A DNA stretch of 64,000 nucleotides from Symbiodinium sp. CCMP2592 (Eukaryota; Sar; Dinophyceae; Suessiales; Symbiodiniaceae), in contig CAJNDT010003391.1 in NCBI GenBank assembly GCA_905221615.1, positions 32,501-96,500 of the forward strand. Direction: 5' to 3'. A program made the translations under genes and the position numbers. The notes under the pieces were generated by a model, which was given only the letters and a program-made list of their open reading frames with translations, ran no database searches and was not told the origin of the DNA. Below, one piece after another: positions 35,501-46,007 of the stretch. Within the stretch, counting starts at the first letter, position 1. Each line of letters begins with the position of its first letter.

Positions 35501-38500
35501 ATTCCCTACTAACCAAAGGTAAGCTGTTGGAGGCTCTTTAGGGTTTAGGGTTTAGGGGATGGGTAGGTATAAGTGGGGTTATAATTCCATTAAGAAGGTG
35601 CTATAACTACTACAGTTTTCCCACCTACAACCTTAAAATGGGTCATACCTAGAGTTATCCGACTTATAATTCGACTCATGACTACCTATGAGCATCCAAG
35701 CAAAGCACATGGACGACACCCGGGGAAGTCCTGAATTGAAAGGGGAAAAGGAGGGACCCTCAATGGGTATATAATAGCTATATTAAGGGTATACCGAGGG
35801 GTCCTTATTAAGGGTCTCTCCTTCTACCCTTGGATGAATGCCTGGGTCCGGATCCCAGCCTCTGAGCCACAAAACCGTGAACAAAAACCGTAAGGAACCG
35901 TATAAAACCGTGTAATGCGTGATGCCCCCCCCCGCCCCCCGCCCCAAGCTTCACATTGTCCATCTCTCCATCTATGGTCAACGCCAAAAAGTTGGAAACC
36001 TCTTGGCCTACTTCCAGCACTTCTTGAGACAGGCTAAAACCCAAATTTCCAACTTTGCAAATTTCCATGTTCGAGCGCAACCAAAAAGTTGGAAACTTCC
36101 ATCTTGCACCCTCTTTGCATTTTGCATCCTTGTCACTTGCACATGAATCAAAATGTCAGAGAGTTCAAAGTGCAGCAAGGGTTCCAAACTGAGATTGGCG
36201 TTCATTGCCAGATGTGAAGGCAAGCCCACATTGGGCAGGCACACCAAACTGAGTGGAAACAGACCAAAATTTCCAAGAATTCCGCGTTGACTGTATAGCT
36301 TTTTACGAATACATACAAAATATCTAGGTAGCTGTATATGTTCATGTTCCTTTCGCCGGGTATCTGATCTGCACAAAACCGAAAGCCCAGACTCTACCCC
36401 GAAGCCCCTTCAATCCGAGAAGTCAAAGCCAAGGGTCCTGGCCCGGGAGGCTTTTCACCTGAGACTCTGCAGCTTTGCCGTGCGGGCGGGGGGAGGGAGG
36501 AGGGTTTAGGGTTTAGGGGTTTAGGGTTCTGGAGTTTGAGTGGGTTTAGTGTTCATGGGCGTCGGGGTTTAGGGTTTAGAGGTTTAGTGTTTAGGATTAA
36601 GTTTTGGCTACGCGGCTTCTTCCGCGGGCCTAAGACTTCTCAGAACTTCCACTCTGCCACGAATCGCCGAAAGCCTAGGGAGAATCCAGTCTGCTCCGTT
36701 CTTACAGTGGTTGTTGCTCTGACTTTGCTTACGTGTTAGTGTGATTTCGAGTGAAGCAAATATCCTCATCATTGTTGCTTCTTTTATTCTAACTTTTACG
36801 TTTTTATACCAGGTGTGGCTACGAGCACCACACGCCATGCTACCTGTGGCTCGTGAGTCTGGTGAGCCTTTACACGCATCCAGCAGCTCCCTTTGGGCTC
36901 CGGATCCAGGGCTTCAGCTTCCAGACGAAGCTTTCAGGATTTGGGGCTTAGGGTTGTAGGGGAATGGGGGTTTAAGGGATTCAGGCAAAAGGGTCTACGG
37001 ATTTGGAGGTTTAAGGGTTAAAGGATGTATCGTCTAAGGTATTGGGGGGGTTGAATGTCGTGGTAAAGCCTTCAAGAGCACGTAACAGACGTAACGTTTT
37101 GGCTCAACTCCTGAACCCCAAACCCAAAACCCAAAAACCCTGAACCCCAAAACCCTAAACCCCTAAACCCAAAACCCTTAAACCCCCAACCCAAAACCCA
37201 AATCCTTAAACCCTAAACCCCTAAACCCTTAAAGCCTTAAAGCCTAAACCCCTAAACCGAGAACCCTTAAACCCTAAACCCCCTAAAATGGCTTCGGACT
37301 TCAGCGCTCGGAGAATCCCTCTTGAAAACCAAATCTAAACCCCTTGACCAGGATCCCAGTTGAACGTTTAGGAGGATCCGAATAGGGTCCTTATTACCGC
37401 CCTTCCTTGAGTTCGAGTTCGGCTGCTCTGCAGCTGAGCTATCGGCTGCAAGGCTGTAGCCACCACCGTATCTGGCCTGGCCGGCTAAACCCCAAGAGGA
37501 CACACAGGGATTCCGGTTTAGGGTTCTTTGGCTTAGTTTTGTTTTTGAAAAACCTGCCGTCCAGCTCGAAGCCCCTGAGGCTTTGAGGATGTGGAATGTC
37601 TACCATGGCTTCAACCTGCCCAGGACCCAGAAGAAAAGCCTTGGATTCACTTGCAAAGCCCGAATCCCAGTGTAATTCGGCATTTCTTAAGATGTTCAAG
37701 GATTAGGAAATCTGGTGGCTTGAGGGTTCCTTTAGCCTTTGCCGACACAGGGGCCCAAAGCAGTCTTGCAAAGACTTCAGGGAACAGCCCCCTCACCCGA
37801 CACCACCCTCAGCACAGCAGTTTGACTGGCAAGGCCAACGGGGCAAGAGACACAGCAGACTGCCACTTCTACTGCTGCCGCGACGAATATGTATGTGCAG
37901 GACGGCGAAGGCGAACGCTTCTTTTTTAGGGACCTACATAAGTACCAACACTGTTTTGGGGGTTCCTTATTATAACCCTAATTCGGAAGTCCCCTATATT
38001 ACCACTACCATTCTCCTGCATCTTGGTCTTTTGGCCTTGAGCTCGACGGGACTTCCCAAGCAGCGGAACTGGCCGTGAACCTGGCTTCTGCTACGTTTCT
38101 GGAACTTGCTTTCTGGACTCTTACCCACAGGCCGCATAGTAGTTCCTTTTTGGATTTCAATTCGATAAGGAAAAAAACCAAAAGGAACTACTATGGGTGG
38201 GGCCTATGGGTAAGCAAGTCCTCGGACAAAAATCACCCGAAGACAGGACCCACCCTAAAGCCGTAAGCCGCAGTTCAGGATGACGAGACTTAACAAAGGG
38301 GCCTTAGTAATTAGACTAGGATTTTGGGTTAATATTATACTATAAATACAATGAGGAACCCCCAACATAGTATAGGCAATTTGCATGATCACACTTCAGG
38401 TGTCGGTGTGTTGGATGCACGGATTGAAAAGAGTGTCTGCCTGTGTGTGTGTGTGTGTGTAGAGCAAGGCTTCTTAGAACCCAATCTCGCATTTCTGGGT

Positions 38501-46007: not shown

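Follow-up and report, generated by a model that had tools for sequence, protein, structure and literature searches.

A putative full ABCA transporter gene of Symbiodinium sp. CCMP2592 with very short, even exons that appear to extend over at least 565 kb

Among the closest described systems are the intron-rich genes of the Symbiodiniaceae and the gigantic genes of animals. Table 2 of PMC10666404 lists, for S. natans, splice donors of the kinds GC (58%), GA (18.4%) and GT (23.6%) and an acceptor AGG share of 97.1%, with mean exon lengths of 106 bp in S. natans, 98.7 bp in D. trenchii and 120 bp in Cladocopium and average gene lengths of 8.8-15.7 kb in these three; the same source gives S. natans an average of 14.7 introns per 1,660 bp (PMC10666404). 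An intron of 26,372 bp from C. cohnii is called notable in a review (PMC11453091). Gigantic animal genes, including dystrophin and the Drosophila Y genes, are described as nearly all intron, with repeats lying within the introns (PMC11207136). In mammals, exons no longer than 51 nt are described as rare and are thought difficult to recognise (PMC4317164). In the accessible part of the open literature on longest or giant genes no report on dinoflagellate gene size was found, and searches for dinoflagellate microexons, for longest introns and for ABCA transporters of the Symbiodiniaceae yielded nothing related there.

The window considered here is the whole stretch of 64,000 nucleotides that was analysed; it comprises bases 32501-96500 of a contig of 738,935 bases (C3391) in an assembly of 1,098,105,373 bases. 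An earlier note on this DNA had claimed a complete ABCA nucleotide-binding domain (NBD) built from 13 exons of 25-65 nt, and such a domain is present at 46007-37447. The hallmarks occur in order on the minus strand (GVNGAGKTTT of Walker A, GYCPQFD, LSGGNKRK, VVLLDEP, LTSHSMEE and GQFRCLGSP), and the 13 short frames connect in phase at AG acceptors and GT, GC or GA donors with zero stops. The coding share, put by the note at about 620 nt in 8.6 kb, was measured as 623 nt in 8,561 nt, and the two very short exons of 25 and 27 nt that it named are both found. The domain is the second NBD (NBD2) of a longer protein and its exons, with lengths from 5' to 3' of 25, 53, 53, 51, 55, 65, 60, 63, 27, 60, 36, 45 and 30 nt, are listed below, preceded by the intron that borders them.

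46008..64000, minus strand, part in the window of a 52,803-nt intron (whole intron, contig 78508-131310; the rest lies beyond the window)
45983..46007, minus strand, NBD2 exon 1, GVPPGECFG, first after the 52.8-kb intron
44859..44911, minus strand, NBD2 exon 2, Walker A (LLGVNGAGKTTTMRMITG)
44473..44525, minus strand, NBD2 exon 3, DTEVTNGDILVGGASVQ, GA donor
44008..44058, minus strand, NBD2 exon 4, Q-loop (GYCPQFD)
43826..43880, minus strand, NBD2 exon 5, ALPDKLTVRETLSLYARI(R)
42080..42144, minus strand, NBD2 exon 6, GVPRDEVAQVTETMVRKMCLE, start of GenBank model P0009
41965..42024, minus strand, NBD2 exon 7, ABC signature (LSGGNKRKLST)
41431..41493, minus strand, NBD2 exon 8, Walker B (VVLLDEPSTGVD)
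41108..41134, minus strand, NBD2 exon 9, VGARRFLWE
40359..40418, minus strand, NBD2 exon 10, switch His (LTSHSME)
39075..39110, minus strand, NBD2 exon 11, ECEVLCTRLTIM
38036..38080, minus strand, NBD2 exon 12, VHGQFRCLGSPVELK
37447..37476, minus strand, NBD2 exon 13, ARYGGGYSLA

These borders were obtained with a purpose-written spliced aligner using BLOSUM62, the acceptor AG and the donors GT, GC and GA only, such that other donors could not appear. A splice-aware alignment allowing GC and GA donors was the check that the note had suggested, and it returned the same 13 exons from three proteins, with scores on the minus strand of window 37000-46500 of 928 for P0211, 781 for P0121 of Durusdinium trenchii and 513 for P0012. 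Inner exon borders were identical with all three and the outermost edges varied by at most 3 nt. Of the controls, the plus strand scored 58-67; no score exceeded 92 in the ten shuffles made for each query, or 80 in five other stretches of the window tried with each. The domain end proposed by the note at 37450 proved slightly short: the domain itself stands, and its final exon extends to 37447 and measures 30 nt rather than 27. An alternative end of the third exon at 44464, with DVR coding, was ruled out, P0121 and P0211 having ASVQ followed by AQRD or ANRD, which places the end at 44473. Once spliced, the domain is assigned by Pfam to ABC_tran (PF00005, E 4.8e-27), with Walker A, Q-loop, signature, Walker B and switch His in one frame.

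Exons continue on the 3' side of NBD2 and bring the share of the gene that lies in the window to its final 27 exons, 1,139 nt in total. They were placed by alignment with P0009, P0211 or both.

36438..36458, minus strand, exon, 21 nt (P0009/P0211)
35220..35252, minus strand, exon, 33 nt (P0009/P0211)
34541..34570, minus strand, exon, 30 nt (P0009/P0211)
34185..34222, minus strand, exon, 38 nt (P0009/P0211)
33338..33383, minus strand, exon, 46 nt (P0009/P0211)
31761..31796, minus strand, exon, 36 nt (P0009/P0211)
30923..30953, minus strand, exon, 31 nt (P0009/P0211)
30116..30159, minus strand, exon, 44 nt, SISQTSLEE (P0009/P0211)
29477..29515, minus strand, exon, 39 nt (P0009/P0211)
28398..28466, minus strand, exon, 69 nt, end of P0009
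28000..28035, minus strand, exon, 36 nt (P0211)
26735..26767, minus strand, exon, 33 nt (P0211)
26036..26059, minus strand, exon, 24 nt (P0211)
25435..25470, minus strand, last aligned exon; the frame continues 20 codons beyond the end of P0211, then a stop

P0009 is a GenBank entry of 257 aa named 'ABCA3, partial [Symbiodinium sp. CCMP2592]' which is 100% identical to the spliced model from exon 6 of NBD2 onwards. Its exact spliced match runs from window position 42142 to 28398 and reproduces the mapped borders; therefore the gene has not been wholly missed by annotation, contrary to what the earlier note had expected, although P0009 is without the five exons that carry Walker A and the Q-loop. 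The 1,681-nt intron 5' of NBD2 exon 6 contains a long (TAG)n array, which may be the reason why the P0009 model begins at that exon. No other GenBank entry holding upstream pieces was named among the 120 matches listed per protein search.

The guide for the remainder of the gene was P0211, a gap-free protein with 2,839 residues, encoded on a contig of 8,767 nt and identical to the spliced model at 581 of 608 residues. It carries two ABC_tran and two ABC2_membrane_3 domains and spans all the NBD2 joins, the 52.8-kb intron and the remaining mapped junctions. The origin of P0211 is given as source 'lgn' alone, so that an intronless copy in the genome of a relative may be what it represents. Its last 865 residues were mapped to 61 consecutive exons at contig 176,901-57,935 (119 kb), 20-69 nt long (mean 42.4, median 39; the 5' edge of the first is uncertain), which together hold 863 codons and 0 stops. 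Donors of the 60 mapped introns are GC in 44 cases, GA in 10 and GT in six, 54 of the 60 thus being non-GT, and 53 of the 60 acceptors read AG/G (AG followed by G); over these introns the locus shows the combination of GC, GA and GT donors with AG/G acceptors by which spliceosomal genes of dinoflagellates are recognised. Intron phases 0, 1 and 2 number 31, 17 and 12, and intron lengths range from 55 to 52,803 nt with a median of 861. GC3 of the 863 codons is 0.75, as against a GC content of 0.48 in introns shorter than 10 kb. Two exons, those at window 28466 and 25470, each show a gap of a single residue relative to P0211, and the C-terminus is 20 codons longer. A second closely matching set of exons was not found in the genome at E <= 0.001.

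The 52,803-nt intron lies just 5' of NBD2 and contains no N. One codon is divided between contig 131311 and 78507, and it closes in frame to give AVRGISV-G-VPPGECFG. Within the intron, at about contig 112.6-127.7 kb, is a retroelement in which a frame of 2,095 codons matches RVT_2 (E 4.7e-17); RVT_2 we take to be the reverse transcriptase of copia-type elements, and hence the element to be copia-type. A spliced search for TMD2 with P0121 in the 20 kb upstream of 46007 scored 105, within the range of five controls (97-112), and a regex scan found no exon 5' of 46007. In 16 further scans of 20 kb each, reaching contig 166.5 kb, the minus strand past 118.6 kb scored 175, 469, 537 and 246 and the remaining 12 scored 100-130; the upstream exons guided by P0121 lie at contig 154,024-131,311, on the same strand and in order. 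Rfam at gathering thresholds gave nothing in the window, nor in six upstream stretches.

Searching the whole genome with pieces of P0211 gave 27 matches on C3391 (1, 13 and 13 per query set), some of them weak (E up to 1.2 in one set and 0.4 in another). All 27 are strictly collinear, from residue 14 at contig 623,086 downward, and therefore the gene extends over at least 565 kb, or at least 565,152 bases, 1.5% of them coding. Five of the 27 run across a stop, which we read as intron at exon edges. Other contigs gave 64 matches (other ABC genes), 2 and 3 in the same three query sets, all of them to ABC genes or weak, and in the second set the best E belonged to a match on C5032 with 32% identity. 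Above contig 246.5 kb, where 5 kb of sequence were read and the remaining exons are match coordinates, the exons read at 307.1 kb and at 304.6 kb show 96% and 95% identity to P0211. Coordinates alone place about 98 kb between residue 1146 at 469.5 kb and residue 1151 at 371.1 kb, the latter a weak match; a firm one follows at 368.4 kb (residue 1177). The upstream placement leaves out P0211 residues 639-1107, 1428-1677 and 1731-1974. The 69.6 kb that precede residue 1976 (contig 176.9-246.5 kb) yielded no recognisable exon: with tblastn the matches were weak only, and spliced searches there for residues 1731-1800, 1795-1825 and 1915-1978 gave control-level scores. A match of residues 1802-1816 at 223.6 kb (E 0.42) was left uncounted, since the spliced search had stayed at control level. 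The initial account of an ABCA NBD with an open frame thus holds as far as it goes and was incomplete, the domain being NBD2 within a full transporter, the exons of which extend across at least 565 kb.

By sequence, the closest relatives that bear a name are ABCA proteins, which places the protein in this subfamily, and among solved proteins it matches ABCA3, ABCA4, ABCA1 and ABCA7 best, aligned at their NBD2 (E 2e-119 to 5e-106). Judged from sequence, it is an ordinary ABCA member, putatively of the lipid-exporter type to which the family belongs. It differs from ABCA1, ABCA3, ABCA4 and ABCA7 in that the R1_ABCA1 domain was not called in P0211 and in its gene structure. P0211 scored 915.4 bits against the ABCA4 equivalog TIGR01257, for which the curated cut-off is 4012.85. 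The full chain TMD-NBD-TMD-NBD is present in P0211; in the studied gene TMD2-NBD2 was fully read and the rest consists of ordered exon matches with gaps. Closest among the matches listed are P0001-P0008 (sources ena, merc, jgi and eukprot), 73-80% identical and taken for dinoflagellate proteins, and there are further full-length ORFs (P0212, P0213 and P0215), each of which reads through as one protein. A second ABCA gene of the same genome, P0210 on C779, has 2,177 codons in one uninterrupted frame with no intron; both genes encode two NBDs and two TMDs, and their matching stretches are 35-51% identical. P0214 from Polarella has 2,227 residues on a listed contig of merely 39,641 nt, and therefore the sparse build is not common to Polarella. 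P0160, with the name tag Skav (presumably Fugacium kawagutii), is listed with 231 residues as covering 19 kb.

Taken together, the window very probably covers the 3' portion of a single-copy, apparently intact gene of Symbiodinium sp. CCMP2592 for a full ABCA transporter (TMD-NBD-TMD-NBD), at least 565 kb long and presumably spliced via exon definition. The whole pre-mRNA would exceed half a megabase and be transcribed as one unit, and the spliceosome would detect the small, even exons as units, a process termed exon definition. Such recognition would set no upper bound to intron growth; one intron here, which contains a retroelement, has reached 52.8 kb. A single-celled alga seems to splice exons of 20-69 nt with 54 of 60 donors non-GT and with introns of at least 50 kb. 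Of 60 exons, 46 measure 51 nt or less, a size that is thought hard to recognise in mammals. Together, these features make exon definition directly testable in dinoflagellates. Gene models of such genes break, the GenBank entry found being a piece of the gene; the published genome-guided transcript assembly, as described in PMC8045281, limited introns to 100 kb.

The evenness of the exons can be expressed quantitatively. For the 59 internal exons of this one gene the coefficient of variation (CV) is 0.31, with a minimum of 20 and a maximum of 69 nt, whereas 60 introns placed at random give a CV of 0.96 with extremes of about 1 and about 197 nt, and none of 5,000 draws under each of three nulls was as even. 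Random placement with a floor of 20 nt lowered the CV to 0.51, with a maximum of 124 nt, and again none of 3,000 draws was as even; a floor is insufficient and a ceiling is therefore needed as well. With its penalty on introns, an aligner might overlook exons of a few nt but could not shorten long ones, and 863 of the 865 residues have been placed. The exon at 307.1 kb, outside the mapped stretch, has 75 nt matched, so that the ceiling is not a sharp one. A tentative reading, which we offer as a possibility that is rather on the doubtful side, is that introns in this lineage are spaced so that exons, each recognised as a unit, stay at about 20-70 nt, longer ones being split by intron gain and shorter ones lost, while the introns, whose donors are mostly non-GT, may lengthen freely to 50-100 kb. 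If this were true, the 565-kb ABCA gene would be its natural limit case, and if the remainder is cut equally finely the whole gene would have about 200 exons. In any event the even exon lengths provide a quantitative regularity for intron-gain theory to explain.

That the introns arose as recent introners, intron-making transposable elements, would account for their number and would be compatible with a single intact gene, but it seems unlikely to us. Introners are known from dinoflagellates, according to PMC10666404 and PMC11453091, repeats with inverted arms occur within the introns, and complementarity within 200 nt of the ends is slightly raised, 16 of 53 introns scoring at least 10 where 12.9 were expected. 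However, within 30, 60 and 120 nt complementarity equals that of mismatched pairs, direct repeats average 2.77 against 2.69 in mismatched pairs, and none of 59 introns has an exact inverted repeat of 8 nt lying no more than 30 nt from both of its ends. The pattern of 8-20-nt inverted repeats with 3-5-nt direct repeats near both ends, by which introners are recognised, was thus absent from these 59 introns. Old, decayed introners are possible as the intron source.

It is very improbable that the great length is an assembly artefact, with repeats or foreign blocks inserted between the exons. The gaps do contain long repeats and the retroelement, and a contig of bacterial appearance (C5051) points to some impurity of the assembly, but C3391 is free of N from 57.9 to 246.5 kb and the exons flanking the mapped gaps keep their order, strand and, where read, frame. 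Table 1 of PMC8045281 describes the published CCMP2592 assembly, which we infer to be the same one, as a PacBio hybrid with 0.02% gaps. Harder still to sustain is a division into two or more transcription units, in which the NBD2 half would be a gene of its own 3' of the 52.8-kb gap and would receive a spliced leader in trans. Spliced leaders are trans-spliced in dinoflagellates, P0009 begins within NBD2 and blocks of exons are parted by gaps of 50-100 kb; against this, the codon split over the 52.8-kb gap closes in frame, and P0211, P0212, P0213 and P0215 are each one continuous protein. A decayed or truncated ABCA copy that keeps recognisable exons, which could be read from the two single-residue gaps, the longer C-terminal end and a long intron with a retroelement that might signal a broken gene, is scarcely credible given 61 exons and 863 codons free of stops or frame breaks, about 96% identity to a full-length relative (P0211) with the NBD motifs intact, and the lack of a second closely matching copy at E <= 0.001.

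One intact, very long ABCA gene therefore remains the reading to be compared with what has been described elsewhere. The two single-residue gaps relative to P0211 and the longer C-terminus weigh against it, as do shares of GT and AG/G below those of S. natans, the weakness of some upstream matches, the matches on other contigs and the possible genomic origin of P0211. With S. natans the gene shares the same kinds of donors and acceptors, while GT is lower here (10% against 23.6%) and so is AG/G (88% against 97.1%). Typical Symbiodiniaceae genes are also intron-rich, whereas the studied gene combines an exon mean of 42 nt with a span of at least 565 kb; for a dinoflagellate gene comparable in span and in its tiny, even exons, no report was found in the accessible part of the open literature. 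Like the gigantic animal genes, the gene described here is nearly all intron and has repeats within its introns. Gigantic animal genes reach 2-4 Mb, and the present gene is smaller and belongs to a unicellular alga; unlike them it uses mostly non-GT donors and, in its mapped part, exons of 20-69 nt. Its splice signals are of kinds already known in dinoflagellates, and it is the gene itself, at least 565 kb long with very even exons of 20-69 nt, that stands out.

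Within the giant intron of the ABCA gene, the 52,803-nt intron just 5' of the NBD2 exons, lies a copia-type retroelement with long open frames (112.6-127.7 kb in contig coordinates); a Pfam scan of 1,296 codons of its 1,998-codon frame gave no match. Two families of MITE-like short repeats recur across several introns of the gene, and their positions are inside the introns, away from the extreme ends:

39227-39301 (window), MITE-like repeat in an intron
40956-41030 (window), MITE-like repeat in an intron
44135-44214 (window), MITE-like repeat in an intron
45185-45264 (window), MITE-like repeat in an intron

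Tandem arrays are also found in the window. Long TAG/AGTAGT-type trinucleotide and hexanucleotide arrays occur in introns and flank (42643-43092, 24367-24622 and 57427-58157), and a degenerate 41-nt unit forms a 7-kb array with strong strand skew at 8663-15727. The giant intron also contains a GC-rich array of a 22-nt unit (50727-52406); the long frames that this array generates, in either strand, are probably spurious.

Downstream of the gene, two near-identical 219-codon frames (window 110-769 and 5718-6377) lie 5.6 kb apart, and two pairs of long direct repeats, 97.7-98.5% identical, are present at contig positions 34960-38688 and 23813-27500, and 38109-40356 and 32501-34736. The paired frames and repeats indicate a recent segmental duplication.

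Elsewhere in the assembly, contig C5051, of at least 2.87 Mb and with numerous uninterrupted ABC frames, is probably a bacterial genome remaining in the assembly. Contig C3268 carries a tandem gene array of three 786-codon ABC frames, at 441253, 446394 and 451535, spaced by exactly 5,141 nt.

In contrast to the many-exon gene, a full-length ABCA gene of 2,177 codons on contig C779 (186834-193364; protein P0210) lacks introns. The same genome carries both forms, and comparing the two is an obvious way to investigate retroposition or the loss of introns.
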